DNA of 64,000 nucleotides from Chloracidobacterium sp. (GTDB lineage: Bacteria; Acidobacteriota; Blastocatellia; Chloracidobacteriales; Chloracidobacteriaceae). Below, piece by piece: positions 3,514-34,302 of this stretch (within the stretch, counting starts at the first letter, position 1; each line of letters starts with the position of its first letter). The notes below the pieces were generated by a model. The model was not told the DNA's origin. It was given only the letters and a program-made list of their open reading frames with translations, and searched no databases. Location of the stretch: NCBI GenBank assembly GCA_025057975.1, contig JANWUV010000007.1:124001-188000 (forward strand). Direction: 5' to 3'. Both the position numbers and the translations under genes were made by a program.

Positions 3514-3788
3514 GCTGAGACTCCTGTCCGTTCCAAAATCAACGTCACCGCAACAGTGAGCGTTGCATTGGACACCCTATGTAGCAGGGCAGGCTACTTG
3601 AGCTTGTTTGTAAGGAATCACACCTTTTGGTAAGTGTCAAACCCTAGTTTTTTCGGCGTGTGTGGTGGTTGAACAAACGTCGCGCCGCGCCAATTTTTTC
3701 GTTTCAGACGCAACATGCCGATCACCGATCCGAAAACCAAAATAGGCGGTCCTACGCCTTTATGCTTAGCTCAGCGGAGTAACGCGCC

Positions 3789-6072: not shown

Positions 6073-6285
6073 CGCCGCCTTACCAGCATAGCTATGTGAC
6101 CAATCCGTGGGACGGACAAGCGGGTCTTCATCCGTCGCGCTTGGCGTCCGTACAAAATGGTTTTCGCGTTACTCCACTTCATCCATATCCCTGGCTTACA
6201 CCTACTCGTACCAAGGCACAGCGACACCTGCGCCAGACTGGGACCCGCGTCCAAGCGCGTCAGGCGGGGCATGCCGGCCTCATCC

Positions 6286-6708
6286 TCACTCCTCGTCGGA
6301 GAAGACGATTTCATCCACATCGCTGAAAGGTTCCGGTAGAGCGTGGCGCTTGAGGTCTTCGAGTGAAACGACTTCAAGCGCCTTTTCATGCGTCGCTTCC
6401 AGAATGACCGGCGGTGCGACGCCAGCGTCCAGTGCTTCTTTCCACCGGGAAACGCAAAGGCACCACTGGTCGCCCGGCTTGAGGCCGGGAAACCGATACC
6501 ACGGCGCCGGTGTGGACAGATCGTTTCCACGCGACTTCGTAAACGCCAAGAATTCCGCCGTCATCCGAGCGCAGACGACATGCGTCCCAAGGTCGTCGGG
6601 ACCGGTTTCGCACTTGCCCGTACGATAAAAGCCTGTCAGCGGCGAGGTACAGCAGATTTCAAGCGGACCGCCAAGCACGTTACGGGGCGCTTTCTCCGTT
6701 TGGGACAT
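6286..6708 (-). CDS. DUF2237 family protein
   Basis: 140 residues from ATG at 6708. The DUF2237 signature is nearly complete: NVLGGPLE, SPLTGFYRTGKCETGPDD, HVVCARMTAEFL, RGNDLSTP, FPGLKPGDQWCLCVSRW and APPVILEATHEKALEVV. The family is small, soluble and widespread in bacteria, with several conserved cysteines; its function is unknown. A longer frame from 6777 adds 23 residues unlike the family, so the shorter start is preferred. It lies between queC and a plus-strand hypothetical gene. The 213 bases between it and queC show nothing I can name. Confidence 0.93.
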   Translation of the reverse strand: MSQTEKAPRNVLGGPLEICCTSPLTGFYRTGKCETGPDDLGTHVVCARMTAEFLAFTKSRGNDLSTPAPWYRFPGLKPGDQWCLCVSRWKEALDAGVAPPVILEATHEKALEVVSLEDLKRHALPEPFSDVDEIVFSDEE

Positions 6709-6849
6709 GCACGTGACCTCAAGCGGCAAAATCTGAAATGATAGCTTTCCAGCGGAAATTCTTGGGCGAGGAGCCAACAGCCGTCAAGTTGTGAAAACTC
6801 GCCTGGCTTCCGCCGCTGGGAAACCAGTGTTGGGAACGCGGAGGGGGCA

Positions 6850-7209
6850 ATGGCCAGTCCGATTTTTGAGTACACGGCGCCGGTTGCGCCGATCATGCCC
6901 AACGAGGCGGCGCAGCTCGCCAAGAACTTCGCCTGCGCCGATCCGAACCAAAAGACGTTTGTTGGGTTGCCGCCTTCAATCAAGGATGCGCACGGCCTGC
7001 CTTCGGCGACCTGCATCACGGTCACGTTTGAGGTTGCGGCCGCGGCGAGAAGCGTCACGGCGTATGTCGCCGGTGGACGCGGGGGCCTTCTGCGGCTTTC
7101 GACCGACCTGATGGACGCCCTGCGCCTGACGCCGAACGCCAAAGCGACGGTGCGCTTGCTGTCGCGGGACGGCGACCGGCCGCACATGGAAATCTCCGCT
7201 GCGGGCTGA
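6850..7209 (+). CDS. Hypothetical protein, unrecognised
   Basis: 119 residues, preceded by a GGAGGGGG purine tract ending at 6848, which supports ATG at 6850. The protein is soluble, has no signal peptide or membrane segment, and has a mixed alpha/beta composition with TCITVTFEVAA in the middle and ATVRLLSRDGD near the end. I do not recognise the family. It is coding rather than a shadow because the ribosome-binding site fits and the competing minus-strand frame (6636-7637) is Arg/Ser-rich with no domain. It converges on the glycosyltransferase array across a hairpin at 7240-7259. Confidence 0.55.
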   Translation: MASPIFEYTAPVAPIMPNEAAQLAKNFACADPNQKTFVGLPPSIKDAHGLPSATCITVTFEVAAAARSVTAYVAGGRGGLLRLSTDLMDALRLTPNAKATVRLLSRDGDRPHMEISAAG

Positions 7210-7239
7210 CCGTACATTCCGACCCTGAAAACAACGCCT

Positions 7240-7259
7240 GCGGCGCGGAGGAGCGCCGC
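7240..7259. terminator. GC-rich hairpin between convergent genes
   Basis: GCGGCGC and GCGCCGC form a perfect 7-bp stem around a 6-base loop. Flanking ACAAC and GTTGT could lengthen the stem with an internal mismatch. It lies between the ends of a plus-strand and a minus-strand gene. There is no strong T-run, so intrinsic termination is only possible, not shown. Confidence 0.35.
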
Positions 7260-7269
7260 TGCATGTTGT

Positions 7270-8808
7270 TCACGGTGTTCGCCGCCACTCATAAACGATA
7301 TAGTTCGGCGTCTCGCGTACGATGGGATAGCCGCGTCGTTGGAACTCACCAAACCAATGCCGCATGTAGGTTTTGTGGCAGACGAAATAAAAGTTTCCCG
7401 CCCATCGGCTGAAAAACTCGTTTTCGTCAAGCCAGTCCGGGACGCGCGGATGGCGTTGCAGGGCCCATAAGCCGGTTTCGGCGTCCGGTGTCGGGCGCTT
7501 TTTCGTTGCGACATAAAGGAGTTGTTCAAATCGTCCGGGATAGTAGTGACGGATAGGGAAGTACAGGTGGGCCGCTGCAACAATCGGATATTCAAGCTGC
7601 GGCAGCGCGATGATTTCCGCAACGCTTGGCGGTACAAGTCGCCAAGGCTGCATGGCGGCGCCAGCGACGGGGACGCCCATCAAGCACCACGCTGCGACGG
7701 ACACCAAAGCCGTTCGCTCCTCGGGCAGACGGCGCAGCGCGTACGCCGCCAGTCCGCCGCAACCGATGAGTGTCGAAAGAAAGTACCGGTCCTGAAACGC
7801 CGTTTGACGAGTCATTTTCAAGACGATCATCCAAAGGATTGGGAAGAGGAGAAAGCTCAAACTTGTCGTCAGCCAGATGCGGTCGCCGTCGGGGCAGGTA
7901 CTTGAATCGAATCCATGAACATTCGCCAACGCCCGTTTGCGCCGGACGACCAAGAGACCGACAACCGCACACAAGCCGAGGTACGGCGGAGCGCCGATCA
8001 GCCAGTGGTAGAAGTCAAGGAGTTCGCGCCACGCAAGGGTGATTTTCCAAAAGCCTTGTTGCGCCTGCTGGTGGAAAAAGGGGAGATGCGTCGGCAGCAC
8101 AAGCATGGGGGCGCATAGCGCCGCCCACCGTGCGCGGTCGAACCGCCGCGTAGCCCAAGTCAGTCCCCCTTCAACGAGCCACAGCAGCCCGATGGGGAGC
8201 GCCGCAAGGTAGTGGAGCGCCGCGACAAACGTCAGGCTCAAACCCAAGCTCACTAATCCCAAGCGCCGCTGGCGCGGTTGCCGTGTCAGTTGCCAACCGA
8301 CCAGCCCCAAGCCTAACCCTCCCAGAACCGGTCCGTACGGGCGCGCTTCGCCGGCGTAATACACCGCCGCCGTCAACACCGGCGTGACCATGGCGACCAG
8401 CGCCGCCGCCCGTCCGCCGCCCAGCAGGCGCACCCACACATAGAGCGACACGCAAAACACCCAGTAGCCGACCATGGCCGGCAGCCGAAAAACCCACTCG
8501 CTTTCGCCGAAGCAGCCGACCAGCAGGCGCGCGACGACGTAAAACAGCGGCGGGTTCTGGTCGGGGCCGCGCCGAATGAGATCAAGCATCCCGGCCCAGT
8601 CGGGCATCGTCACGATGTAGTAGGTGAACAACTCATCCAACCAGAACGCGCGCGTGGCGGCGGCGTGGACTACATGGGGAACGTAAAGCAGGGTGAAGAC
8701 GGCGACGGTCAGGCAATCTTGGCGCAGGCTGCGCCCGTCGTCGCCATCAAAGACAAGATTTGGGGCGGCTGACGAATCCGCCAATGCCTGACTAATAGGC
8801 GTAGTCAT
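7270..8808 (-). CDS. GT39/PMT-like membrane glycosyltransferase, array copy 4
   Basis: About 512 residues, a GT-C type polytopic membrane protein with roughly ten hydrophobic segments. AFWLDELFTYYIVTMPDW near residues 50-70 carries the acidic DE pair that serves as catalytic or metal site in GT39/ArnT-type enzymes. It is followed by RRGPDQNPPLFYV. Such enzymes transfer a sugar from a polyprenyl-phosphate donor on the periplasmic side; the donor and acceptor here are unknown. It is last of four tandem paralogues. ATG at 8808 gives a short MTT start like its neighbours and overlaps the stop of copy 3 by 17 bases. The C-terminal domain ends YIVYEWRR, matching the YFVYDY-type ends of the other copies. 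Confidence 0.85.
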   Translation of the reverse strand: MTTPISQALADSSAAPNLVFDGDDGRSLRQDCLTVAVFTLLYVPHVVHAAATRAFWLDELFTYYIVTMPDWAGMLDLIRRGPDQNPPLFYVVARLLVGCFGESEWVFRLPAMVGYWVFCVSLYVWVRLLGGGRAAALVAMVTPVLTAAVYYAGEARPYGPVLGGLGLGLVGWQLTRQPRQRRLGLVSLGLSLTFVAALHYLAALPIGLLWLVEGGLTWATRRFDRARWAALCAPMLVLPTHLPFFHQQAQQGFWKITLAWRELLDFYHWLIGAPPYLGLCAVVGLLVVRRKRALANVHGFDSSTCPDGDRIWLTTSLSFLLFPILWMIVLKMTRQTAFQDRYFLSTLIGCGGLAAYALRRLPEERTALVSVAAWCLMGVPVAGAAMQPWRLVPPSVAEIIALPQLEYPIVAAAHLYFPIRHYYPGRFEQLLYVATKKRPTPDAETGLWALQRHPRVPDWLDENEFFSRWAGNFYFVCHKTYMRHWFGEFQRRGYPIVRETPNYIVYEWRRTP

Positions 8809-21213: not shown

Positions 21214-24200
21214 CTAGAGCGCCCCGTCCCAGTTGCCCACCAGCGGCAAGTCGCCCTCTGCGCCGTACACCAGCAGAAAGTCGGCCGTCCCCGGCAGGTT
21301 CGTGTTGCGTAGGAAAAACGTCTGGACGCGATAGACGCCGACCGTATCCACGCCGTCGCCGTCGAAGTCGCCGACAACCGCCTGATCGTCAGGATTGCCG
21401 AAAGCAAACGCCAGATCGGCGAAGCCCCCACTGTTGTCGTTGCGGAGAAGGAATGTGTTACCACGGACGACACCGATGGTCGTCGTCCCATTGCCGTCCC
21501 AGTCGCCGACAATTGGCCGGTCGCCTGCTTCGCCGTAGGTTATGATGATGTCTGGGTTGCCGGGTGTATTGCTGTTGCGGAGAAAGAACGTTTGCTCGGC
21601 CGGGCGATAGACGCCAATGGTCGTCGTCCCATTGCCGTCCCAGTCGCCGACCAACGGAATGTCTTCGGCTCCGCCGTAGGCTGCGGCCACGTCGGCGACC
21701 CCAGCGCTGTTGCTGTTGCGGAGGAAAAAAACGCCGCGCCGGAAGACGCCGACAGTTGTTACGCCATCGCCGTCCCAGTCGCCCGCCAGCGGAACGTCGT
21801 CCTCTGCGCCAAAGGCGAATGCAAGGTCGGCGTCGCCGGAGGTGTTTGAGTTACGCAGGAAGAATTGACCTCGCCGGAAGACGCCCACCGTGTCGCCCTG
21901 TTCGCCGCGCGCGCCATATGCGCCAAGAACCTTGGACAACCCGCCGCCGCCGCGACCGCCCCAGACAATCATCCGACTGCGCGTTGTGTCCCAGATCGCC
22001 GTGTGTCCAGCGGTCAAATCCGGTGCGCCCTCTGTCTCAACCGGACGCCAGAAGTTGAACGTTGGATTGTAGCGTCCGCCAGTCGCGCCAGCGTCACCCC
22101 AGACAATCATCTCGCGTCCCGTCCACACCGCCGTATGCCCAGAACGCGCCGTCGGAACGCCGACCGCCGCCGTTGCAGCCCAAGTGTCGGTCGTCGGGTT
22201 GTAGAGCGCACCAGAGTTGAAAACGCGCGCCGCCGTGGTCGTTCCACCCCAGACGATCATTCGGTCGCCCGTCCAGACAGCTGTATGGTCAAAGCGGGCG
22301 TCGGGAGCACCGTCTGTTCCGCCGGAAGCCGTCGGGTCGGTGCGCGTCGCTGTCCAACTGTTCGTGGCCGGATTGTAGCGCCCGCCGGTGCGCAGTTCAG
22401 AAAGGCGGTTGCCGGCAAACGTGACGCCGCCCCAGACGATCATTTCTGTCCCCGTCCACACGGCCGTATGCCGCGCACGCGGCGCCGGACGCCCGTCGGC
22501 GGCTGTTGCAGTCCAAGTGTCCGCCACTGGGTTGTAGCGCCCGCCGTTGTCAAAGTAGGTGGTTTGATTGTTGGCGGGATTTGTAAAGCGCCCACCCCAG
22601 ACAATCATTTCCGTCCCCGTCCACACGGCGGTGTGTTCCTCGCGGGCGCTAGGCGCATTCGTCAGGGAGGTCGGCGTCCATTGGTCGGTCAGCGGGTTGT
22701 AGCGACCGCCTGCATTTGTCTGCCCGCCCCAGATAATCATTTCGCTACCCGTCCACACGGCTGTATGACCGACCGGCGGCAGGTTGTTCGCCGAACCGGG
22801 CGCATTTTGCGTCGCGGTTGGCGTCCACTGCGCCGTAGCGAGATTGTATCGGCCGCCGGTTAATGTCCGGACGCCGGCCGCCGCGCCGCCCCAGATGATC
22901 ATTTCGACGCCGGTGTTGACCGCCGTATGTAACTCGCGCCCTGACGGGACGGGCGTCGTCGCCGTCGGCAGCCAAGCGTTAGTTAGCGGGTCGTACCGCC
23001 CGCCAGTGTCGTCGCCGCCCTGTCCACCCCAGACAATCATGTACTTTGTCGCGTTTTGGTTGGGCGCAGCGTAAGCGTCCGTCCAAACGGCTGTATGATT
23101 GTCACGTCCGGCCGGAGCCCCGACAGTCGTCACCGGCGTCCACGTATTGGTCGCTGGATTGTACCGCCCCCCGTCGTTGAAGCGCCTTCCCTGCGCCGAG
23201 CCACCCCAGACGATCATTTCCGTCCCCGTCCAGACCGCCGTCTGGTCAACGCGCGGCGTCGGCGCGCCGACCGTGGCGATGGGCGTCCAGCTATTAGCGC
23301 TTGGGTTGTACCGCGCACCCGCGACGGTCGGCGTCGCTGTGCCTGCAACACTCCCCCAAACGATGAGTTCCGAGCCCGTCCAGACGGCGCTGGGCGTGAA
23401 CAGACCTGGCGCGTTGGTCGTGCTCGTCGCCGTCCAGGTGTTGTTGCTGGGCGTGTAGATCCCTCCACTGTTGAGCCGGCCGCCATCGGCGTTGACCCCC
23501 CCGAAGACAATCATTGCCGCGCCGGTTGAGACAGCGATGTGATCCGTCCGGGCCGCCGGCGCGCCAGCCGTCGCCGTAGCGCTCCAGGTGTTGGTTTCAG
23601 GGTTATAGACGCCGCCGGTGTTCGTCGGGAGCAGAACGTTGCCACCAGCAAAGTTGAGGTTGCCGCCCCAGACGACCATGCGCCCGGCCTGGGCCACCCA
23701 GACGGCGACATGGCCAAAGCGCGCCGCTGGCGCACCGTCGTTCGCCGTCGAGGAACTGGGGTCGGTGCGTGTCGCCACCCATTTATCTTCCACCGGGTCA
23801 TAGAGCGCGCCGGAGTTGACCGGCGCGCCGCTGACGCCGCCCCAGATGATCATGCGCGTACCGGTCCACACAGCCGTATGGTTGACGCGCGGAGCCGGAG
23901 CGCCGTCGGTCGCGCCAGGGGCGCTAGGCGCAACGCGCGTCGGCGTCCATGTGTCGGTAATAGGGTTATAACGCCCGCCGGTGTTGAGCGGCCCGCCGCC
24001 GCTGAACGTTCCGCGAAAGCCGCCCCAGACAATCATCTCCACACCCGTCCAGACAGCCGTGTGACGAAAACGCGGCGCAGGAACGGCGTCCACTGGGTCT
24101 AGGACCCACCGATTGTCAGTGCCGGCGACGGCTTCGGGCGCAGCGTTATCCATAACAACAGGCGGAAATGATCCCGCCATTGTTGGGACAACGGGACTGT

Positions 24201-25131
24201 AGCCCGCCTTCACCTGCGCCCACCACGTATCAAAATCCATCTTGCGCCACTCGGCCGTGCCAATCCGCAGCCGCCCCTCTTCAACCGTGTAAAGGCGTTG
24301 GACGAAAAACCGTTCGTCGTCTTCGCACAGCGCCGTCGTTGCGCCGGGCGCCAGTTTATCCGCCGGCATGTTGAAGCGTTCCGCAAGCCGGTTGAGTTCC
24401 GCGTCCCAGTCGGCGGCGGCAATAAGCAGACGGTCGGAACGTCGCCGGTCGGCTGGCGCGTCGCCCGTATCCCGGATCAGTTCGATTTCGCTGTAGAGCG
24501 CGCCGAAGTTAGGCGTCTGTTCAAGCGCTGGCGTGTTTTCAAGCGCACGTCGAGCCTGAGCCTCGGTCTGGGCGTGAAAGCGTCGGTCGCGGGCGTAGTC
24601 GGCATGAATCCGCTGTTTGATAAGGGCCGGGCGGGCCAGGCATTCGGCGACAGCAATCGGGTCATTGTCGAGCGCGGCAAACAGTTCGCGCAAAACCTCC
24701 GGCTGCTTAGATTGCCGCACCATCCGGGTCACTTCGGCGTGAAGTTCGGCCGCCGTCGGCGCGTGCCGCCACAGCAGCTCAAGCGCATGCTGTTGGCGCA
24801 GCTCGTCTTCAACCAATGCTCGTAGCCGCGCTAGCGGCAGAACACTCTCCAAGGCAGGTTTTGGCGTTGCTGCTTCCCAGCGCCGCCGCTTCCAGTAAAC
24901 CTTTTCAATCGCCTGCCGGTAACGCACGCGCTCGTCAAGCGTAAGCGTCCGCCACTGAGCGACGCCTGGCAGCGCGACAACCAGTGTGTGGCTTCCACCG
25001 GACCGCTGAAGGGGAGAAACCATAGCCGACGATGCTGCGGACGGTTCGGCCGCCGGCGTCGCCAATGGCGACACGGAAGCCATGCACAACATCACAGCGA
25101 AGCAGACGTTGACAAAAGAGAAGGACGACAT
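21214..25131 (-). CDS. Secreted Kelch-repeat protein with FG-GAP-like C-terminal repeats
   Basis: 1305 residues from ATG 25131. The signal peptide is FSFVNVCFAVMLCMASVSPLA. Residues about 40-290 form a helical, Arg/Glu/Ala-rich region that loosely resembles the SurA/parvulin-type chaperone N-domain. Then come 14 Kelch-like units of about 50 residues, each with HTAVWTGxEMIVWGG and a following GGRYNPxTxxW. The last 220 residues are five repeats with the core FFLRNSN...GDWDGDGTTTIGV, ending VGNWDGAL. Kelch units form beta-propellers, so 14 could give two. It is presumably extracellular; function unknown. The C-terminal repeat module recurs in the gene at 40163-42325. A start at 25182 is possible but gives a poorer signal peptide. 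Confidence 0.88.
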   Translation of the reverse strand: MSSFSFVNVCFAVMLCMASVSPLATPAAEPSAASSAMVSPLQRSGGSHTLVVALPGVAQWRTLTLDERVRYRQAIEKVYWKRRRWEAATPKPALESVLPLARLRALVEDELRQQHALELLWRHAPTAAELHAEVTRMVRQSKQPEVLRELFAALDNDPIAVAECLARPALIKQRIHADYARDRRFHAQTEAQARRALENTPALEQTPNFGALYSEIELIRDTGDAPADRRRSDRLLIAAADWDAELNRLAERFNMPADKLAPGATTALCEDDERFFVQRLYTVEEGRLRIGTAEWRKMDFDTWWAQVKAGYSPVVPTMAGSFPPVVMDNAAPEAVAGTDNRWVLDPVDAVPAPRFRHTAVWTGVEMIVWGGFRGTFSGGGPLNTGGRYNPITDTWTPTRVAPSAPGATDGAPAPRVNHTAVWTGTRMIIWGGVSGAPVNSGALYDPVEDKWVATRTDPSSSTANDGAPAARFGHVAVWVAQAGRMVVWGGNLNFAGGNVLLPTNTGGVYNPETNTWSATATAGAPAARTDHIAVSTGAAMIVFGGVNADGGRLNSGGIYTPSNNTWTATSTTNAPGLFTPSAVWTGSELIVWGSVAGTATPTVAGARYNPSANSWTPIATVGAPTPRVDQTAVWTGTEMIVWGGSAQGRRFNDGGRYNPATNTWTPVTTVGAPAGRDNHTAVWTDAYAAPNQNATKYMIVWGGQGGDDTGGRYDPLTNAWLPTATTPVPSGRELHTAVNTGVEMIIWGGAAAGVRTLTGGRYNLATAQWTPTATQNAPGSANNLPPVGHTAVWTGSEMIIWGGQTNAGGRYNPLTDQWTPTSLTNAPSAREEHTAVWTGTEMIVWGGRFTNPANNQTTYFDNGGRYNPVADTWTATAADGRPAPRARHTAVWTGTEMIVWGGVTFAGNRLSELRTGGRYNPATNSWTATRTDPTASGGTDGAPDARFDHTAVWTGDRMIVWGGTTTAARVFNSGALYNPTTDTWAATAAVGVPTARSGHTAVWTGREMIVWGDAGATGGRYNPTFNFWRPVETEGAPDLTAGHTAIWDTTRSRMIVWGGRGGGGLSKVLGAYGARGEQGDTVGVFRRGQFFLRNSNTSGDADLAFAFGAEDDVPLAGDWDGDGVTTVGVFRRGVFFLRNSNSAGVADVAAAYGGAEDIPLVGDWDGNGTTTIGVYRPAEQTFFLRNSNTPGNPDIIITYGEAGDRPIVGDWDGNGTTTIGVVRGNTFLLRNDNSGGFADLAFAFGNPDDQAVVGDFDGDGVDTVGVYRVQTFFLRNTNLPGTADFLLVYGAEGDLPLVGNWDGAL
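21930..24070. repeat. Tandem Kelch-coding DNA repeats (14 units)
   Basis: Units of about 150 bases carry the recurring plus-strand string CCCCAGACAATCAT or a close variant, which encodes MIVWGG on the minus strand. Spacing varies, and the intervening sequence differs, so these are coding repeats rather than a CRISPR. Confidence 0.9.
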
Positions 25132-25430
25132 CAAAGGCGTGACTTCGCACAAGCTTTTGGGGTCTTCAACACTCTGCTCCAAGCCTACCGCAGAGCGCGG
25201 AACAGGCGCGCATTCTTATCCCGACGCCACTGGAAGGCCAAGTGGAAGGCCTCCGTGCACCTTCTTTAGACAAGGCACAGGACGCCCGCCGAGCCGGTTT
25301 AGTGAGGAAGGGCGCTAAAATTTTCCGCCGAGTTACCAGAAAAAAACACGAATTTTGCAACATTCCTACTATACCATACAGGCATAAATGCCAGACCTCG
25401 TGATTACTAACTCTTTGAACTCTGTGAACT

Positions 25431-25730
25431 GTGAACAAAATCATTGAAAAACTGCCTTGTGTGGTACGCCGCATCGCCGGCGAAACCTTGGTGATCCCTA
25501 TTCGCGGACAAGCCGCCGACCTCGACGCCATTTACGTTCTCAATGACACGGCCGCCTTCCTCTGGGCGCAGCTTGACCACAATGACAGTCCGGCGGCGCT
25601 AGCAGCTGCGCTCTGCCAAGCGTTTGATGTGTCGCTTGCACAGTCCATCCGGGATGTCACCGATTTCCTCAGCGACCTTGGCAAAGCCGGCCTGATTCGC
25701 GCCAAAGACGCCGCTGAACAAGCTGCGTAA
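25431..25730 (+). CDS. PqqD-like peptide chaperone
   Basis: 99 residues from GTG at 25431; a TGA two codons upstream makes this the earliest start. The pattern YVLNDTAAFLWAQLD followed by VSLAQSIRDVTDFLSDLGKAGLI matches the winged-helix PqqD/RRE fold, which binds the leader of a precursor peptide and presents it to a radical SAM enzyme. It lies nine bases before such an enzyme, which strongly supports this role. It heads the cassette ending at 33070. The 300 bases upstream are locally AT-rich (about 25315-25430), the expected place for a promoter, but I cannot identify convincing -35 and -10 boxes. Confidence 0.88.
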   Translation: MNKIIEKLPCVVRRIAGETLVIPIRGQAADLDAIYVLNDTAAFLWAQLDHNDSPAALAAALCQAFDVSLAQSIRDVTDFLSDLGKAGLIRAKDAAEQAA

Positions 25731-25739
25731 GGGCTTGAG

Positions 25740-27002
25740 ATGGGGGGCGTTATGGTGGAGCGTGTGTCCTACGCGGAGTTCAGTCGCCGACTGCACCATC
25801 GGCTATTGCAGGAACGGATTCCGCTTGAGGCGACATTTGAGGTGAGCCGGCGGTGTCCCCTGGCCTGCCGCCACTGCTACAACAACCTGCCGATGAACAA
25901 CCATGCGGCGCGGCGGCGGGAATTATCGCTGGATGAGTACCGGCGGATTTTCGACGAGATCGCTGAAGCCGGTACGCTCTGGGTGCTGTTTACCGGCGGC
26001 GAAATCTTTGCCCGCGCCGATTTTCTTGAGATTTACACCGAGGCCAAAAAGCGCGGGTTTCTCATCACGCTCTTCACCAACGGGACGCTTGTGACGCCGC
26101 GCATCGCAGATTACTTGGCCGAGTGGCGTCCGTTTGCGATTGAGATCACGTTGTACGGCCACACCCGTGAGACCTATGAACGCCTGACGCGCGTTCCCGG
26201 CTCCTACGACCGGTGTCACCGGGGGATTCAGTTGCTTCTGGAGCGTCAACTGCCCCTCAAGCTCAAAACGGTTGGGACGACCATCACCAAGGACGAAATC
26301 TTCGCCATGCGCGACTGGGCGGAGAGCCTGGGTGTGCCGTTCAAGTTTGACAGCATGCTCAATCCGCGCATTGACTGCTCGCAGTCACCGTTGGAAGTGC
26401 GCCTAACGCCGGAGGAGGTCGTTGAGCTGGACCTCCGCGATCCGCGTCGTTTGCCGGCATGGCGGGAGTTGAACGACCGCTACCAAACGGCGGTCATGGC
26501 TCCTTACGTGACGAATACCGTCTATGACTGCGGCGGCGGCGTCGGATCGTTTGCGGTCAACCCGTACGGCGAGATGTCCATCTGCGTGCTGTCGCAGGTG
26601 GACACCTACGATTTACGGCGGGGCAGCTTTCGGGACGGCTGGGAGCATTTCCTGCGCCACGTGCGCCTGCAACAGCGAACGCGCCCGGTCAAGTGCCAAA
26701 CCTGCGAGATTCGTCCGATGTGCGGAAGCTGCGCCGCCGTCAACGAGCTGGAAAACGGCGACAAGGAAGCGCCGATTGATTTCGCCTGTCGCGTCAATCA
26801 TTTGCGTGCCTACCTGCTTGGCATTCCACTCAAGCCCAACCCGCTGTGCGAATACCGCCCCGGCAGTGGACGTTACGATGACATCCAAGCTTCAGTCGCA
26901 GCCCTGCGCTCACGCGCCCGCGAATTGGGCGTCGCTCTGCCCTCTCGTCCGCGCCGCAGTCTGCCCGTTATGCCGGCGGCGGCGCTTCCGGCAGCCGGGT
27001 GA
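25740..27002 (+). CDS. Radical SAM/SPASM peptide-modifying enzyme
   Basis: 420 residues (416 if ATG 25752 is used; both have purine-rich upstream sequence). The 4Fe-4S/SAM site CPLACRHC is at residues 39-46. TGGEIFARADF is the usual GGE SAM-binding motif. The C-terminal SPASM domain has Cys in YDCGGGVGS and MSICVLS, then CQTCEIRPMCGSC and a final Cys in DFACRVNH, the expected ligands for two further clusters. Such enzymes install thioether, carbon-carbon or epimer modifications on ribosomal peptides. The adjacent PqqD-like protein and the small cysteine-containing peptide gene 66 bases downstream give its likely partner and substrate. The chemistry cannot be told from sequence. Confidence 0.93.
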   Translation: MGGVMVERVSYAEFSRRLHHRLLQERIPLEATFEVSRRCPLACRHCYNNLPMNNHAARRRELSLDEYRRIFDEIAEAGTLWVLFTGGEIFARADFLEIYTEAKKRGFLITLFTNGTLVTPRIADYLAEWRPFAIEITLYGHTRETYERLTRVPGSYDRCHRGIQLLLERQLPLKLKTVGTTITKDEIFAMRDWAESLGVPFKFDSMLNPRIDCSQSPLEVRLTPEEVVELDLRDPRRLPAWRELNDRYQTAVMAPYVTNTVYDCGGGVGSFAVNPYGEMSICVLSQVDTYDLRRGSFRDGWEHFLRHVRLQQRTRPVKCQTCEIRPMCGSCAAVNELENGDKEAPIDFACRVNHLRAYLLGIPLKPNPLCEYRPGSGRYDDIQASVAALRSRARELGVALPSRPRRSLPVMPAAALPAAG

Positions 27003-27068
27003 AGGTTTTTTGCTGGCAACCAAAAAATTTGCACTGACGCATAGAAAGCCACCGAGGTGTCAATATCC

Positions 27069-27263
27069 ATGGAGAACCAAGACAAACCAGCGATTCCCAC
27101 CCCAAGCGATGCGCAGGGGCGACGTCCCTACACGAAACCTGCCATTGTGCGTGTTGAACTGCGCGCTGAAGAAGCCGTTCTTGGCGCATGCAAGACGATG
27201 ACCACGGCTGGGCCGGCCAGCCCGCAGTGTGGGGCGCTGGGTTGCAGCGCAATTGCCTCATAA
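27069..27263 (+). CDS. Candidate radical SAM-modified precursor peptide
   Basis: 64 residues from ATG 27069 with GAGGTG nine bases upstream; a GTG at 27057 is an alternative. It is a charged, proline-rich N-terminal leader (PYTKPAIVRVELRAEEAVLG, residues 20-39) followed by a small core with Cys41, Cys54 and Cys59, many Ser/Thr/Ala/Gly and a C-terminal Ser64. Size, position between a radical SAM/PqqD pair and an HprK-like kinase, and the leader/core contrast all fit a RiPP precursor. The leader pattern KPxIxxVELRxEEAVL looks like a recognition element. The mature product is unknown. Confidence 0.75.
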   Translation: MENQDKPAIPTPSDAQGRRPYTKPAIVRVELRAEEAVLGACKTMTTAGPASPQCGALGCSAIAS

Positions 27264-27274
27264 GCCAAGACGCC

Positions 27275-28162
27275 ATGACAGAAGAAACACTCTCCATCGG
27301 CGACTTGACCATCGCCGTTCGGCGGGAAGCCACCGACTTGCCTTCGGCGACGGACGGCCCGCTGGCACTGTTTACAACGCCGACGCGACCCACAACGCCG
27401 ACGGCGACTGTTTCGGTGGTGTGGTGGGATGATCGCCGGTCGCCGGTGAGACGTACGGAACAACTCTTCGCGTCGGGCGGAACGTGGACGCTCTACCGCA
27501 GCGCCGACGGCGGCTACGTCTATGACATCAGTTCGCCGGTTTTTGGGGCACAGCCGTATCGTACAGCGTGGTTCGACGCCAGTTACCAAACCGGTTGGAT
27601 CGCCTACCGACCGGACGCCGTTGTGCGTCGCGCCATGCGCGCCGCGCTCGAATATCCGTTGGACGAGTTACTCGTGACGAATCTGCTGGCGCGCGGGCGT
27701 GGGGCCGAACTCCACGCCTGCGCCGTCAGGGATGTGGACGGGCGCGGCTTTTTGTTCGTCGGCCAATCGGGCGACGGCAAGACGACGACGGCCCGCCTGT
27801 GGGCGGCGGCCGGCGCGACGATTCTGAGCGACGACCGCGTGATTGTCCGCCGGATTCATGGTCAGTGGCGCATGTTCGGCACGCCGTGGCATGGCGAAGC
27901 CGACTACGCCTGCCCTGATTCGGCGGTGATCACCGGCGTTTTTGTTCTGCGCCGGGGACGCGAAAACGTCATCGAGCCTGTTTCAAGCGGGCTGCTCTCT
28001 GCGTTGCTGTTCGCGCGCGCCTTCCCGCCTTTTTACGATCCCGAAGCAATGGATTTTACGGCGGGGTTTCTGGCGGAACTGGCGACATCCGTCCCCGGTG
28101 GTTGGTTGGCGTTTACGCCGACTATGGAAGTTGTGGACTTTATTCGCAGGTGGACGCCATGA
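27275..28162 (+). CDS. HprK-like serine kinase
   Basis: 295 residues from ATG 27275, 11 bases after the peptide gene. The N-terminal half is a beta-rich domain typical of HprK-related proteins in peptide and polysaccharide clusters. The kinase core has the P-loop FVGQSGDGKTTTARLW (about residues 165-180), ILSDDRVIVRR with the Asp pair expected of HprK, and TPWHGEADYA. True HPr kinases phosphorylate a serine on HPr; relatives in some lasso-peptide clusters phosphorylate the C-terminal serine of the precursor. The precursor here ends in Ser, so it is a plausible substrate, though this is inference. The stop overlaps the next start by ATGA. Confidence 0.85.
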   Translation: MTEETLSIGDLTIAVRREATDLPSATDGPLALFTTPTRPTTPTATVSVVWWDDRRSPVRRTEQLFASGGTWTLYRSADGGYVYDISSPVFGAQPYRTAWFDASYQTGWIAYRPDAVVRRAMRAALEYPLDELLVTNLLARGRGAELHACAVRDVDGRGFLFVGQSGDGKTTTARLWAAAGATILSDDRVIVRRIHGQWRMFGTPWHGEADYACPDSAVITGVFVLRRGRENVIEPVSSGLLSALLFARAFPPFYDPEAMDFTAGFLAELATSVPGGWLAFTPTMEVVDFIRRWTP

Positions 28163-28683
28163 CGATCAACCTGTACGAACTAGCAGGTGAGTTACTGGCG
28201 CAGGGGCAGCCTATACGTTTTCGCGCGCCGGGACGGAGTATGGAGCCGACCATCCCGGACGGCGCGGAGATTGTGGTCGAGCCGTTGTCGCCGGACGTGC
28301 CGGTACAGGTCGGCGATATCGTGCTGGCTCGCGTCGGTGACCGGCTCATTGCGCACCGCGTCATCGCCGTCGAGGGCGACGGCGCAACAGCGCGATTGTT
28401 CCTGCGTGGCGATGCGCAACGTGAGGTTGTGGACTGTGTGTCGCGCGTTGCGCTTCTGGGCAGAGTGACTCCAACGTTCGGCGGCCGGACGCCGGAGAGC
28501 GCCAGGCAATGCGAACGAGGGCACTTTTGGCATACAATCGCGCCGCCGGCGCTTGGGCGGGTTGCCGCGTCTTATAAACAACTGCTCTCCCGACATCTCC
28601 GAGAACAACCACACGCGAACACCGCAAAAGCGGCAAGGCTTTTCGCCGCCTGCCTGATGACTTTCCTATTGGAGAAAAGAAAA
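28159..28683 (+). CDS. S26/S24-type (signal peptidase-like) domain, in frame with downstream C25 protease
   Basis: Starts at ATG 28159, overlapping the kinase stop by ATGA. Residues about 1-120 form the peptidase: the serine in GRSMEPTIPDG, then GDIVLARVGDRLIAHRVIAV, where His replaces the Lys of bacterial signal peptidase I as in archaeal/ER-type enzymes, and LRGDAQREVV. It probably cleaves a leader or signal. There is no stop codon before the start of the next protein at 28684, so the open frame continues to 32985. The end given here is the last base before that internal start, not a stop codon. The product is either this domain fused to the protease (1608 residues) or two proteins made from one frame. 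Confidence 0.7.
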
Positions 28684-31600
28684 ATGCCGACACTTGTCCG
28701 ATACGCCGCATTCCATATTGCGCAACAGGTTGGCTCTTACCTACAGCGCGGCTTCCTGGCGCGTAACGCTATTGCCCAAAGGGTATCGGTCGCAGCGGCT
28801 TTCGTAACCACCGTGGCGCTGATGCTAAACGGCATGGTTTTTGGGCAGCGATGCGATAACGCCACCCCGGTCACGCGCATTACTCCGATAGCCCCACTGA
28901 CCGGCGTCGTCAACTCCTACTATCCCGGCCAGTCCGTTGTGAACGGACCAAACAGCAGCACCATTACTATCAAGAACACGGTGTCAGGACAGGGCGTCAA
29001 TGTCGGCATTGCCGTCGGCGATATGGTGCTGGTTATGCAGATGCAGGACGCCACGATTGACAGTAGCAACAACGCCAACTATGGCGCAGGGACAGGTACC
29101 GGCAGCGGCCAGACTTCACAGGGTAACGCCGGGCGGTATGAATTCGCTCGCGTCATTGCCAGCACAGTTACGTCGCTGACGAGCGGCGGAACCATCACGG
29201 TACGCACGAGCGACAGCGGCGGCGGCACGCCTTTAGCCAACACATACACGGACGCTAACGCCACGGCTACTCAGGGGCAGCGGCGGTTTCAGGTTATTCG
29301 GGTGCCGCAGTATACCAGCGTCGGGATCGGCGTCGGACTCACCTGCGCGCCGTGGGACGGCAACACCGGCGGTGTGTTGGCGATTGACGTGCAAAACGTC
29401 TGTCAATTCACGATCGGCTCAACCAACGGCGTCATTGATGTCAGCGGTCGTGGCTTTCGCGGCGGCGGCGGCAAGCGGTTCACCGGAAGTGGCGGTTACG
29501 CCAACACCGACTTCCGCAATACGACGCCAGCTTCGGCAGCCTCGTTAGCCGCAGCTCATGCCTCAAAGGGTGAAGGCATCGCCGGCACACCGCGTTATGT
29601 GGTGAGAATTGTCAATCCCAACGCCAACTACGCTGCGCCGGCGTTCGCCGACATGATTGTCGCCGATACTGGCGTTGAGGGCTACCCGAACGGCAGCTTG
29701 GGCTACGGCGCGCCGGGGAACGCTGGCGGCGGCGGCACTGATGGCAATGCCTCTGCTAACGATCAAAACACCGGCGGTGGTGGTGGGAGTAACGCTGGTG
29801 CTGGCGGTCAGGGAGGGTTCGCATGGAGTAGCGCCTTGGATCGCGGAGGGCGTGGTGGGGCGGCGCAGTCGCCGACCTTGACGCGTATCTTTATGGGCGG
29901 CGGGGGCGGCGCCGGCACCAGCAACAACGGCGCGGGAAACAACGCAAATAACAACGACGACGTCGGCACAAACGACACCAGCAGGGGCGCTAAAGCTAGC
30001 AGCGGCGCGGCCGGCGGCGGTATTGTCTTCATCCGGGCCGGGACAATTCTAGGAACTGGAACCATTCGCGCCAACGGCGCTAACGCACAACTGGTCTCAA
30101 CGGCAAGCGGCATGTCTAGTGCCTCTGACAGCAGCGGCGGCGGCGGCGGCGGCGGGAGCATCGTGCTGACGGCAACCCAACCCAGCCCAGCGACGCTTAC
30201 CATTCAGGCGCAGGGCGGCAATGGCGGCAGCAATAGCCCAAATGACACAGGCGCGAAAACCAGCGCAAATGCCCATGGTCCCGGCGGCGGTGGCGGCGGC
30301 GGCGTGGTTTTTCTAACCTCGACCATCACTGGCGCATCAGTTTCAACAACCGGTGGGCAGAATGGCATAACGCTTTTCAACGGCCCTCCACCCCCATTTC
30401 CATTTGCATATGGCGCGACGCCCGGCGCAGACGGCACGAACAATAACTTTAACATCACCATCACCGACGTGCCGGGGCTGTCATCGAGCGCCGAGTGCGA
30501 TCCACCCGTGTTGACGGACGCGCGATTTACGAACGCTTCAGCGACGCGCTACGCGACGGGCGCGGCAGTGGTGGAGTGGGCGACCGGGTATGAAGCCAAT
30601 AACCTTGGCTTCCACGTCTGGCGGGAGATCGGCGGCAAGCGCGAGCGAATCACGCCGGAACTCATCGCCGGCAGCGCCCTGCTCACCAGTGACGCGCTCA
30701 CCGCCGGACAACACTACGTCTGGCGTGACGACGCGCTGCGTCTGACGCGCGCGCCGGTCAACTACTGGCTGGAAGCCTACGACGTGGACGGCTCGCGCCA
30801 GTGGTACGGCCCGATCACGCTGCGCGAGACGCGCGAAGCGTTCCCGCTGCATCTGCGCAACTCGCCGCTCCTCGGACGAGGCGCGGCGGCGACCGGCGGG
30901 CGACAAATCGAAGTCGCGCCGAACGACTTGACAACGCCGCCGGCAAGCCCTGGGCGCAAGAGCGCAACCGGCGACTTGGCAATGCAGCAACGGCTGGCCG
31001 GGCGAGCGGCCGTCAAGCTCTACGTCGGACAAACCGGCTGGCAGCGCGTTACGTGGGCGGCGCTGTGGGCGGCCGGTCTGTCGCGGATGGCCGACCCGGC
31101 GAACCTGCAACTCTACGTCGAAGGTCGTGAAACGCCCCTGCGCGTCACGTCGGAAGGCGTCGAGTTTTACGGCGTCGCGGCGGATACGCTCGACAGCGGC
31201 GAAGCCGTCTATTGGCTCATCGAGGGCGACCGTCCGGGGCGGCGCGTTGAACTGGGCGCGTCGTTCCCGCTGCTGCGCCCGACGCTGCAAAGCTTCTGGT
31301 CGGCGACAACGCGCGCCGATAAAAGCGTCTATTTTGCGGCGCTGCTCAACGGTGACGAAGACAACTTCTTCGGCAGCGTGGTGACGACGACGCCCGTGGA
31401 GCAGACCGTCACGGTGCGCGACCCCGACCCGTCCGGTCGGCGGCCGGTTGAGGTGACGGTTGAGCTACAAGGCGTGTCGTTGGGTGAGCACGCCGTGTCG
31501 GTGGCGTGGAACGGCCGACCGCTCGGCGTGGTGAACTACAGTGGACGCACGGTTGGGCGCGGCGTCTGGACGCTGCCGGCCGACCAAGTGATGAACGGCA

Positions 31601-32985
31601 TCAACACGATCACACTCCATGCGCCGACGGCCGGCGATGTCAACCTCGTCAAATCGTTGACGGTCGCCTACGAGCGCCGCTTGCGGGCGGCGGACAACCG
31701 GCTGGTGGTGAACGTCCCGCGCGACGGCGCGGGGCTGGGGCGACACATTTTGGCGATTGACGGCTTCACGGCGGCGGCGCGCGCCTTCGATGTGACCGAC
31801 GCGACCGCGCCGGTCGAACTGCCCGTGCGGATGACGGGCGAGACGGCGACCATCGCCGCCGCGCCGGGACGGCAGGTGATCGTGACGACTTCGGCGGCGA
31901 TGGCGACGCCGCGCGCTGAAGCCAATCGGCCGTCACACTGGCATCGCGGCGACCATGCGGTGGATTTCGTCATCATCACGCATGAGGCGTTTCGTCCGGC
32001 GGCTGATCGGCTGGCGCGGGCGCGGCAAGCCGAGGGGCTGCGGACGGCGGTCGTGGACATCACCGACGTGTACGACGAGTGGAGCTACGGCGTGAAGTCG
32101 GCCGGCGCAGTGCGCGATTTTCTGCGACACGCGGCGACGGCGTGGGCGCGGCCGGCGCGGTACGCCCTGCTGGTTGGCAACGCGACCTTTGATCCGCGCG
32201 ACTATCTTGGGTTTGGCGGGAACTTCATTCCGACGAAGCTCATCGGCGTCGGCGCGCTGGAAACGGCCGTGGACGACTGGCTCGGCGATCTGGACGAGGC
32301 CGGACTCGCCCGGTTGGCGGTGGGCCGCCTGCCGGTCAAGACCTTGGCTGAAGCGGAACTGGTCGTGTCGAAGATTCTGGCGTATGAGCAGGCTGGCGAC
32401 GCCGACTGGAAGCGGCGGGCGCTGGTCGTGGCGGATAATCCCGACGGCGGCGGCGACTTTGACGCGGCGGCGAGCGACGTGCTGGAACTGCTGCCGCATC
32501 CGGGGGAAGCGACGCCGATTCGCCTGAGCGCGCTGGGCGCGGGTGGCGCGCGGGCGGCGCTGCTGGCGGGTCTCAACGCTGGCGCGGGGCTGGTCAACTA
32601 CATCGGCCACGGCTCGGTTCAGAACTGGGCGGCGGAAAACGTGCTGACGAGCGGCGACGCGGCGACGCTGGGCAACCACGACCGCGCCGGGCTGGTGGTG
32701 AGTATGACCTGCCTGACCGGTTTCCACCACGACCTGTACACGACGGCGCTGGGCAAGGCGTTGATGCTTGCGCCGGGCGGGGCGGCGGCGGTGTGGGCGT
32801 CGTCGGCGCTGACGCCAAGCGACGGTCAGCACTGGGCGAATCTGGCGCTGCTGGACGCGATATACGGCCTAAATCCGGTGGCGCGGTTGGGGGAAGCCGT
32901 TCAGCGGGCGAAAGCGGCGACGGGCGATCCACAGGTGCGGCAATCGTGGACGCTGTTGGGCGACCCGACCATGCGCCTGCGGTGA
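28684..32985 (+). CDS. Secreted C25 (gingipain-type) cysteine protease with glycine-rich domain
   Basis: 1433 residues from ATG 28684, which has GGAGA eight bases upstream and a long signal peptide (hydrophobic VSVAAAFVTTVALML, then GMVFGQ). A beta-rich N-terminal domain leads into a Gly/Asn/Ser-rich region (about 29440-30330). A segment with VEWATGYEANNLGFHVWRE follows, often seen before gingipain-type domains. The C-terminal C25 peptidase starts near DFVIITHEAF and has the catalytic His (32608-32610) in YIGHGS and Cys (32710-32712) in SMTCLTGFH. It ends WTLLGDPTMRL, as C25 proteins do. No type IX C-terminal secretion domain is seen. It is last in the peptide cassette, before a strong terminator. 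Confidence 0.82.
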   Translation: MPTLVRYAAFHIAQQVGSYLQRGFLARNAIAQRVSVAAAFVTTVALMLNGMVFGQRCDNATPVTRITPIAPLTGVVNSYYPGQSVVNGPNSSTITIKNTVSGQGVNVGIAVGDMVLVMQMQDATIDSSNNANYGAGTGTGSGQTSQGNAGRYEFARVIASTVTSLTSGGTITVRTSDSGGGTPLANTYTDANATATQGQRRFQVIRVPQYTSVGIGVGLTCAPWDGNTGGVLAIDVQNVCQFTIGSTNGVIDVSGRGFRGGGGKRFTGSGGYANTDFRNTTPASAASLAAAHASKGEGIAGTPRYVVRIVNPNANYAAPAFADMIVADTGVEGYPNGSLGYGAPGNAGGGGTDGNASANDQNTGGGGGSNAGAGGQGGFAWSSALDRGGRGGAAQSPTLTRIFMGGGGGAGTSNNGAGNNANNNDDVGTNDTSRGAKASSGAAGGGIVFIRAGTILGTGTIRANGANAQLVSTASGMSSASDSSGGGGGGGSIVLTATQPSPATLTIQAQGGNGGSNSPNDTGAKTSANAHGPGGGGGGGVVFLTSTITGASVSTTGGQNGITLFNGPPPPFPFAYGATPGADGTNNNFNITITDVPGLSSSAECDPPVLTDARFTNASATRYATGAAVVEWATGYEANNLGFHVWREIGGKRERITPELIAGSALLTSDALTAGQHYVWRDDALRLTRAPVNYWLEAYDVDGSRQWYGPITLRETREAFPLHLRNSPLLGRGAAATGGRQIEVAPNDLTTPPASPGRKSATGDLAMQQRLAGRAAVKLYVGQTGWQRVTWAALWAAGLSRMADPANLQLYVEGRETPLRVTSEGVEFYGVAADTLDSGEAVYWLIEGDRPGRRVELGASFPLLRPTLQSFWSATTRADKSVYFAALLNGDEDNFFGSVVTTTPVEQTVTVRDPDPSGRRPVEVTVELQGVSLGEHAVSVAWNGRPLGVVNYSGRTVGRGVWTLPADQVMNGINTITLHAPTAGDVNLVKSLTVAYERRLRAADNRLVVNVPRDGAGLGRHILAIDGFTAAARAFDVTDATAPVELPVRMTGETATIAAAPGRQVIVTTSAAMATPRAEANRPSHWHRGDHAVDFVIITHEAFRPAADRLARARQAEGLRTAVVDITDVYDEWSYGVKSAGAVRDFLRHAATAWARPARYALLVGNATFDPRDYLGFGGNFIPTKLIGVGALETAVDDWLGDLDEAGLARLAVGRLPVKTLAEAELVVSKILAYEQAGDADWKRRALVVADNPDGGGDFDAAASDVLELLPHPGEATPIRLSALGAGGARAALLAGLNAGAGLVNYIGHGSVQNWAAENVLTSGDAATLGNHDRAGLVVSMTCLTGFHHDLYTTALGKALMLAPGGAAAVWASSALTPSDGQHWANLALLDAIYGLNPVARLGEAVQRAKAATGDPQVRQSWTLLGDPTMRLR
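29700..30330 (+). repeat. Glycine-rich coding region
   Basis: Runs of GGCGGC, GGTGGT and similar encode stretches of five to seven glycines alternating with Asn/Ser-rich linkers. This is a low-complexity region within the C25 protease gene, before the catalytic domain. Confidence 0.85.
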
Positions 32986-33034
32986 GCGGTCACGGCGGCG
33001 GATAGGCGTTGCCCGCGCCGCCGCCTTTGTGAAG

Positions 33035-33070
33035 AATGACACCGTGTGGTAACGCACGGTGTCATTTTTT
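33035..33070 (+). terminator. Intrinsic terminator of the peptide cassette
   Basis: AATGACACCGTG (33035-33046) and CACGGTGTCATT (33055-33066) form a perfect 12-bp stem with an 8-base loop, followed by six T (33065-33070). It is the clearest terminator in the window, 50 bases after the C25 stop. Confidence 0.92.
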
Positions 33071-33106: not shown

Positions 33107-33502
33107 ATGTCCCTTCCCATGCCTTTGATTTCCATCGGCAACGGCGTCGCGCTCATCGTGTTGAGCGTCGTCGGGTACGTCCTCAAAGACCCGGCCAACA
33201 GCGGTGTGACGGCGTTCATTCCGGCTGCCTTTGGGCTGTTGTTTGTGATTTTCGGCGCGTTGGCTCACAAGGAGAACCTACGCAAGCACGCCATGCATGC
33301 GGTGTCGGCGGCGGCGCTGCTGGGCGTGCTGGGCGGTCTGACACCGATTCTGATGAGCCTCGTCAAAGGCAATTTCGGGGCGCGGCCGCTGGCGCTAGCG
33401 CTGCAAATCGGCATGGTTGTGTTGTGCGGTGAAATGCTGGCGTTGTGCGTCAACTCGTTCATTCAGGCGCGGCGGCGGCGCGCGCAGGAAGCCGCCGGAT
33501 AG
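33107..33502 (+). CDS. Small four-helix membrane protein, unknown
   Basis: 131 residues from ATG 33107. Four hydrophobic segments are visible: IGNGVALIVLSVVGYVL, FIPAAFGLLFVIFGAL, VSAAALLGVLGGLTPIL and LALQIGMVVLCGEMLAL. A basic tail (ARRRRAQ) would sit in the cytoplasm. I do not recognise a functional family. It begins after the terminator at 33035-33070, so it is a separate unit from the peptide cassette. The next gene starts two bases after its stop, so the two may be co-transcribed. Confidence 0.7.
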   Translation: MSLPMPLISIGNGVALIVLSVVGYVLKDPANSGVTAFIPAAFGLLFVIFGALAHKENLRKHAMHAVSAAALLGVLGGLTPILMSLVKGNFGARPLALALQIGMVVLCGEMLALCVNSFIQARRRRAQEAAG

Positions 33503-33504
33503 CC

Positions 33505-34302
33505 ATGGCGACGGCCGCCGTCGGCTCAATTGACGTTTGCCGCCGGACTTTCCTGGCCGGGCTGCGTTCGGAGACGACGCGCCGCGTCTATCGCGCGGCG
33601 CTCGACCAGTTTGAGCACTGGCTGCGTTCGCAGGGGAAACACTGGCTGGACGCTACGCCGGACGACATCTGCGCCTTTCGTGCGGCGTTGTTGGCGCGGG
33701 TTGCGCCGCCGACGGTAGGCGTGAGGCTTGTGGCACTGCGCCGGTTTTACGCCGAACTCGTCGCGCAGCGGCTGACGGCCGACAACCCGGCGCAGATGAC
33801 GCCTGGGCCGTCAACCAGCGGCGCAAGGCTGACTCCCGCTGCCGACCCGCAGTTGATGCAACGGCTTCTGACCTTACCGGATACGCGGACGCTCGTCGGT
33901 GCGCGCGACGCGCTAGTGTTGCGCCTGTTGGGTGAGATGGGGTTGCGCGTGTCGGAAATCTGTGGCCTGCGCCAGCGCGATGTCGTCCGCCTGCCGGAAG
34001 CGACTGAAACCGGATTGGGGCTGATAGTCGGCGACGGGACGCGCCGAGTGCGGATGGTTGACCTGTCGTTGCCGACCAAAACCACGCTGGACGCTTACCT
34101 GCGGCTAGACTTGCCGCTGCGCCGGGCAGCGAAGGGCGATGGGCCTCATGCGGCGCTCATCCAGCGGACAGCCGCCAACCGTCCTGTCGGAGGTTGCGCG
34201 TTGACGCCGCGCTATGTCTTCAAACTAGTTCGGCGGTATGGAGCGCTGCTTGACTGTCCCGATCTCAATCCCCGAATGGTGCGGCTTGCCGCACGTAGCT
34301 GA
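33505..34302 (+). CDS. Truncated tyrosine recombinase (Xer/integrase-like)
   Basis: 265 residues. The N-terminal SAM-like core-binding domain is present (FLAGLRSETTRRVYRAALDQ, then VGVRLVALRRFYAELV). The catalytic domain begins with the first Arg in LLGEMGLRVSEICGLRQRDV. The protein stops at LNPRMVRLAARS, where family members have the HxLRH box; that His and second Arg are replaced, and the later H/W and the tyrosine nucleophile are absent. No continuation is visible in the other frames before ctaA starts eight bases later. It cannot be a normal recombinase: it is a decayed element remnant or a DNA-binding derivative. Confidence 0.75.
   Translation: MATAAVGSIDVCRRTFLAGLRSETTRRVYRAALDQFEHWLRSQGKHWLDATPDDICAFRAALLARVAPPTVGVRLVALRRFYAELVAQRLTADNPAQMTPGPSTSGARLTPAADPQLMQRLLTLPDTRTLVGARDALVLRLLGEMGLRVSEICGLRQRDVVRLPEATETGLGLIVGDGTRRVRMVDLSLPTKTTLDAYLRLDLPLRRAAKGDGPHAALIQRTAANRPVGGCALTPRYVFKLVRRYGALLDCPDLNPRMVRLAARS

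Follow-up and report, generated by a model that had tools for sequence, protein, structure and literature searches.

An apparently undescribed radical SAM peptide cassette of Acidobacteriota with an HprK-like kinase and, often, a gingipain-like protease

In Chloracidobacterium sp. (GenBank assembly GCA_025057975.1, 3.5 Mb), a stretch of 64,000 nucleotides of contig JANWUV010000007.1 (positions 124,001 to 188,000, here called the window) carries a cassette of five functions, namely a PqqD-like protein, a radical S-adenosylmethionine (SAM)/SPASM enzyme, a small precursor peptide, an HprK-like kinase, and an S26-type peptidase domain that runs into a gingipain-type C25 protease. Together, these functions probably produce a small peptide, modify it chemically, phosphorylate it and process it. 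The cassette looks like an undescribed natural-peptide pathway, a reading that is preferred to a chance neighbourhood because dozens of distantly related bacteria carry the same set. It is most likely a new variant of the pathways for ribosomally synthesized and post-translationally modified peptides (RiPPs), in which lasso-like recognition and kinase modules are combined with a radical SAM maturase, an S26-type leader peptidase and, often, an exported C25 partner.

A preliminary description of this DNA had placed the five functions on one strand, with gaps of 9 bases between the PqqD-like and radical SAM genes, 66 between the radical SAM and peptide genes and 11 between the peptide and kinase genes, an ATGA overlap at 28159 between the kinase gene and the S26-C25 frame (28159-32985), and a strong terminator, all of which is confirmed to the base. 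Its interpretation as a new peptide cassette is likewise supported, as far as function can be inferred, by three refutation tests, none of which spoke against it: the genes keep the same order across Acidobacteriota, the peptide frame is retained together with its invariant leader block and three Cys, and the radical SAM enzyme lies under the curated cut-off of every NCBIfam family among those listed.

Conservation of the cassette and its precursor peptide

A scan of genome contigs with the window's own radical SAM enzyme gave 79 cassette loci, nearly all labelled Acidobacteriota, which form a sample of close relatives because they were found with that enzyme. The PqqD-like, radical SAM, peptide, HprK-like and S26 genes recur in these loci in the same order and, in dozens of them, together with C25 on one strand. 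The cassette is no chance neighbourhood, because the set recurs in 79 loci and the peptide gene is under selection. Farther afield, a relative of the radical SAM enzyme (E below 1e-80) was found in 26 of 396 genomes sampled across the phylum, including a deeper tier at 41-50% identity. A few loci labelled Bordetella or Betaproteobacteria are metagenome bins, and their labels are probably wrong; L017 and L018 (CALQLA020000050/25), titled Bordetella parapertussis, hold Acidobacteriota-type cassettes and are probably mislabelled bins of this sort.

Among the 76 distinct peptides of the first tier, the Tyr and Pro of a YxxP leader are present in every one, followed in 69 by L, V or I two residues past the Pro, and all 76 carry a Glu-(Ala/Val)-Val-(Leu/Phe/Met)-Gly block with a Cys-Lys (EAVLGxCK-type). 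The core varies in length and sequence, with three Cys in 71 of the 76 and four or five in the others. The last residue is Ser in all 76; among 15 further distinct peptides from the deeper tier, 13 end in Ser and 2 in Thr, which gives 89/91 Ser and 2/91 Thr for both tiers pooled, whereas long frames of the same DNA end in Ser in 6.6% of cases and in Thr in 4.0%. The two peptides with a final Thr belong to a single genome, G395, which has two partial cassettes and a sole kinase match, located in one of them; this pattern fits, without proving, a shared enzyme that would read the last residue. Comparison within the genus shows the synonymous sites of the peptide gene to be close to saturation (proportions of differing sites in the leader: synonymous, pS, ~0.7; nonsynonymous, pN, ~0.02-0.2), whereas protein changes are few, and rarer in the leader than in the core. 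The 64-residue peptide is a real gene under protein-level purifying selection.

The combination of PqqD, a radical SAM enzyme and a short peptide is also the logic of peptide-derived cofactors such as pyrroloquinoline quinone (PQQ) or mycofactocin, and the enzyme has weak matches to mycofactocin and PqqE models, so that the product could be a cofactor and not a RiPP that keeps its core. This is improbable, however, as the scores lie far under the cut-offs (82.6 vs 265 bits for the mycofactocin MftC equivalog; 67 vs 381 for PqqE), the core is variable and has three Cys with no fixed aromatic pair, and no conserved family of cofactor-using enzymes lies nearby.

The PqqD-like protein, the maturase and the kinase

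The best NCBIfam model for the PqqD-like protein is the lasso PqqD family NF033530, below its cut-off (29.7 vs 70), and none of the NCBIfam maturase, kinase and PqqD families reached its cut-off for the cassette proteins. The radical SAM enzyme, whose closest named relative is from Chloracidobacterium at 91% identity, has the motif C39xxxC43xxC46, SPASM-type Cys at 264, 282, 319, 322, 328, 331 and 350, and further invariant Cys at 159, 213 and 370, and these residues are conserved at 100% across 72 sequences. A defence role was rejected for this enzyme, which had only generic viperin matches, and a search for spread on plasmids gave no match to it.

In the kinase, H147, G163, G166, G168, K169, D186 and D187 show no variation, or almost none, among 55-69 homologues. 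Its weak Pfam score is resolved by a structure model (mean predicted local distance difference test score, pLDDT, 95.6) that matches the HprK fold, with HPr kinase/phosphatase as the best PDB matches and PEP carboxykinase next. The lasso-peptide kinase BsfK has been reported to carry the motif H-G-G-G-K-S-D-D, earlier lasso-peptide kinases have been reported to act on a C-terminal Ser, and the role of the YxxPxL leader and of the B1/RiPP recognition element (RRE) in phosphorylation has been tested (PMC10368454). The cassette kinase has the H...GxxGxGK(S/T)...DD motif of these enzymes, and by analogy with them, together with the invariant last residue, phosphorylation of the peptide at its C-terminus can be inferred.

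The S26 domain and the exported C25 protein

The preliminary description had taken the first part of the S26-C25 frame for a signal peptidase-like domain. A domain of S24/S26 type is indeed present, with S27 and H66 conserved at 100% and D85 at 98% in 63 sequences, as expected for a Ser-His type enzyme; it is more likely a cytosolic leader peptidase than a signal peptidase, because no membrane segment precedes it. The maturation protease of nickel superoxide dismutase is a precedent for a cytosolic S26-type enzyme, on which a search for papers gave nothing usable.

The two proteins were also described as running into each other, and they do lie in one frame, although an in-frame ATG at 28684, preceded by GGAG, might also serve as an independent start of the exported C25 protein. 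An S26 domain and a C25-type protein share one frame at 46 loci (frames running off the sequence counted), and the fused frames contain a linker rich in Arg and a hydrophobic segment, with an AxAQ-type site after this segment in many cases; in 17 loci the two are separate or the frames are broken. Within Chloracidobacterium, some species have them fused, whereas others have them as separate, overlapping frames. The possibility that the junction in the window simply lacks a stop codon was considered; in the Terriglobia-type loci the fusion is real, because the linker itself is conserved. A signal peptidase cut at the internal segment would allow one polypeptide to give both a cytosolic peptidase and an exported protease.

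The exported part exceeds the Peptidase_C25 profile cut-off (243 bits vs 23), with the C25 domain at 31966-32979, and its catalytic His (codon 32608) and Cys (codon 32710) are invariant among homologues. Both its sequence and its fold resemble those of latent PorU and gingipains (6za2 by fold, E 5e-31), and its NCBIfam matches NF033707 (3.2e-69) and NF047640 (3e-29) are both below cut-off. A search for SprA of type IX secretion matched nothing, controls included.

These C25 proteins range from about 900 to more than 2900 residues and contain Gly-rich, DUF11, PATR or beta-propeller regions. Together with the Gly-rich AgmC-like region of the exported part (about 29716-30360) and its likeness in structure to latent PorU, a sortase, this size spread lends some plausibility to the possibility that the C25 protein is a destination, with the matured peptide attached to, activating or inhibiting a giant surface protease that is otherwise a surface or gliding/adhesion protein. 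Invariance of the catalytic His and Cys and the persistence of the core cassette without C25 in deep relatives speak against this alternative, which we regard as possible, though not probable.

Linkage of the C25 gene to the cassette

The preliminary description had linked a C25 protease to the same operon; the link is real, though not universal, C25 being mostly missing from the DNA fetched for deep relatives. In the 48 well-covered loci (at least 8.6 kb downstream of the radical SAM gene), a C25 domain adjoins the cassette in 40, downstream on the same strand in 38 and upstream in 2, a further 4 have a giant frame of C25 type that extends past the end of the sequence, and the remaining 4 have none. 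Five of 20 C25 genes that were selected for lying away from close radical SAM matches adjoin divergent radical SAM cassettes. The six cassette-bearing genomes of the genus have one C25 each, at the cassette in five; in G006, C25 and the cassette lie at opposite ends of one contig and would be adjacent if the replicon is circular. The single genome of the genus without the radical SAM enzyme (85% complete) also has no C25. In G402 the HprK-like and S26 genes are on another contig than the PqqD-like, radical SAM, peptide and C25 genes, yet are retained. Mapped on a tree of C25 genes, linkage requires 4 changes as opposed to 12.6 for shuffles, and the cassette-free genes fall in one nested group, which also holds one linked gene.

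It could still be argued that C25 is an independent neighbour, present by local synteny or chance, as it is common in the phylum (135 of the 396 sampled genomes) and many copies lie away from any cassette. It is, however, found in 20 of the 26 cassette genomes compared with 115 of the 370 others, and the adjacency in covered loci, the single copy in each cassette-bearing genome of the genus, the frame shared with S26, the tree, and the C25 genes of divergent cassettes with other gene orders all argue against such an explanation, which is already disfavoured and improbable. An all-against-all comparison of the locus flanks gave no other conserved same-strand protein family, and therefore no dedicated exporter is conserved.

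A proposed pathway

Taking these observations together, we consider it rather likely that the cassette is a self-contained RiPP pathway, and a five-step scheme can be inferred for it, including its reactions, cleavage site and export route and the substrate and role of C25. The PqqD-like protein would bind the YxxP leader of the precursor and hand it to the enzymes, and the radical SAM/SPASM enzyme would modify the three-Cys core, most likely with thioether cross-links. The kinase would then phosphorylate the hydroxyl of the C-terminal Ser (Thr in two peptides), as the lasso kinases do, and the cytosolic Ser-His S26-type domain would cut off the leader, probably near the invariant AVLG/xCK junction. 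Finally, the exported PorU/gingipain-like C25 protein would act outside the cytoplasm, where it would either make a last cut in the exported product or transfer this product to a carrier. A more ambitious version, in which a radical SAM-modified, C-terminally phosphorylated peptide whose leader is cut by S26 is processed or covalently transferred by a PorU-like C25 enzyme on the same polypeptide, would define a new RiPP class with a sortase-like C25 step outside type IX secretion, and is unlikely.

Several points weigh against the five-step scheme. The type of modification made by the radical SAM enzyme cannot be read from sequence, and the peptidase assignment of the S26 domain is drawn from weak Peptidase_S24/S26 profile scores (3e-6 and 5e-4) together with residue conservation. 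Among lasso kinases, BsfK acts on Ser3 and not on the C-terminus (PMC10368454). HprK-like proteins are present in the divergent loci L135 and L144, where the peptides end in P or G, so that the kinase target may differ there, and in the L135 kinase the His is missing, as is one Asp. The DNA fetched for L014, L030, L039 and L051 has no C25, and most deep relatives keep the PqqD-radical SAM-peptide-kinase-S26 set with no C25 in the fetched DNA; C25 is therefore dispensable for the core pathway.

If the scheme holds, the cassette would be a widespread, apparently undescribed RiPP family from a phylum whose peptides are little known, and it could reveal the role of some of the many C25 proteins of Acidobacteriota. 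It predicts a C-terminal phosphoserine, a three-Cys core modified by the radical SAM enzyme, and a leader peptidase and an exported protease made as one polypeptide.

Features of the locus and neighbouring genes

The features are collected in Table 1. A promoter scan of the cassette gave a signal at background level only. Divergent from the cassette, on the minus strand at 21214-25182, lies the gene of a 1322-residue Kelch/beta-propeller protein, a probable surface protein. At 33445-34302 there is a tyrosine-recombinase-like frame that matches the integrase catalytic domain only in part; it may be truncated, and it overlaps the start of a CtaA/COX15 gene.

Table 1. Positions of the cassette features in the window, with the evidence for each
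Feature	Position	Strand	Evidence
PqqD-like protein, RRE (leader-recognition) domain, 99 aa	25431..25730	+	GTG start; PF05402 1.5e-14
Radical SAM/SPASM maturase, 420 aa	25740..27002	+	PF04055 1.8e-20
Precursor peptide, 64 aa; YTKPAI...LRAEEAVLGACK leader block, 3-Cys core, C-terminal Ser	27069..27263	+	Conservation in 79 loci, purifying selection
HprK-like kinase, 295 aa; H147, G163xSGxGK169T, D186 D187	27275..28162	+	Hpr_kinase_C 3e-4 (weak); residue conservation, structure model
S24/S26-type peptidase domain (Ser27, His66, Asp85)	28204..28461	+	PF00717 3.1e-6
Hydrophobic internal signal segment VSVAAAFVTTVALMLNGMVFGQ, between S26 domain and exported part	28783..28848	+	Direct sequence reading
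Exported PorU/gingipain-like part	28684..32985	+	PF01364 7.7e-72; 28684 is a possible separate start
Intrinsic terminator hairpin	33031..33070	+	18-bp stem, -28.2 kcal/mol, z -6.78

Divergent relatives and other clusters of the same genome

Divergent cassettes with C25 and radical SAM genes in other orders, together with PqqD, HprK-like or S26 proteins, are seen at L131, L135, L137, L141 and L144. Each of the five has a YxxP-type small peptide, ending in Ser in three and not in two, which suggests a wider superfamily of C25-linked peptides. The deep relatives L103-L109 have the PqqD-like, radical SAM, peptide and HprK-like genes with S26 about 3 kb away; in L107, where no C25 is found in the fetched DNA, S26 is followed by a Wzz-like exopolysaccharide protein, and T2SSE/HD-domain and response-regulator-like genes lie between. 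An NTP_transf_5 nucleotidyltransferase gene (PF14907) follows the S26 gene in place of C25 at L014 and L099, and L119 is a divergent version, in which the peptide and HprK genes lie on the strand opposite to radical SAM and PqqD.

Two other clusters are located on contig C2 of the same genome. L145 (G000:C2:81000-92000, ~2339-6139, minus strand) is a lasso-type cluster with a cyclase-like protein (NF033535, 3.8e-80), B2, PqqD/B1, an HprK-like kinase and a YRAPTL precursor candidate at 3297-3500. L146 (G000:C2:276000-287000, ~5319-8325, plus strand) is a hybrid of lasso and radical SAM logic, with a lasso B2 domain, a FVEPEL small peptide, an HprK-like kinase, a radical SAM enzyme and a PqqD protein that exceeds the lasso PqqD cut-off. 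Since the precursor candidates of both clusters end in residues other than Ser, the invariant Ser characterizes the present family. The three clusters of this one genome suggest that different modifying enzymes are paired with a YxxP/RRE/kinase front end.

Comparison with known systems

The cassette has the general make-up of an RRE-dependent RiPP locus, with a ribosomal precursor of conserved leader and variable core adjoining an RRE and a modifying enzyme. A literature search, with most subscription journals outside its coverage, found no paper that combines the cassette's parts. With the phosphorylated lasso peptides (paeninodin/PadeK, ThcoK, SyanK, BsfK) it shares the PqqD-like RRE, the YxxPxL-type leader, the HprK-like kinase motif and a phosphorylatable C-terminal Ser, and the nucleotidyltransferase gene of some lasso clusters recurs in its relatives L014 and L099. 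In contrast to them, it has no lasso cyclase or B2 peptidase and has instead a radical SAM/SPASM maturase, a three-Cys core, an S26-type peptidase and an exported C25 protein. No conserved family of B2 transglutaminase-like peptidases or Asn-synthetase-like cyclases was found around the loci, and the genome's own B2 copies are on contig C2, away from the cassette on C7.

Radical SAM RiPPs (sactipeptides/ranthipeptides; StsB, PapB, AlbA) likewise have a radical SAM/SPASM enzyme with a PqqD-like partner and a Cys-containing peptide, but the cassette maturase is below every family cut-off and, to our knowledge, neither kinase nor C25 protein is part of described systems of this type. SynChlorMet, GeoRSP and HPr-rel-A/B loci share radical SAM and PqqD, some with an HprK-related protein, and differ from the cassette in the peptide family, S26 and C25. 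Scores were far below cut-off for SynChlorMet ScmC/D/E/F (18/125, 22.6/100, 85/400 and 64.2/400 bits), the GeoRSP radical SAM equivalog (61.6/400) and HPr-rel-A/HprK_rel_B (TIGR04352/04353/04355; 12.5/200, 17.8/35 and 24.9/200). The cassette is not filed as lasso, SynChlorMet, GeoRSP, HPr-rel-A or mycofactocin because it was tested for their defining features and lacks them.

PorU and the gingipains share with the exported part a C25 domain with its His and Cys and the multi-domain fold of latent PorU. The curated PorU cut-off is missed (233.7 vs 420 bits), and the cassette C25 differs from these proteases in its fusion to a cytosolic S26 domain and its link to a peptide cassette. The cassette unites modules that are known separately, namely lasso-type recognition and kinase, a radical SAM maturase, an S26 peptidase and a gingipain-like protease.

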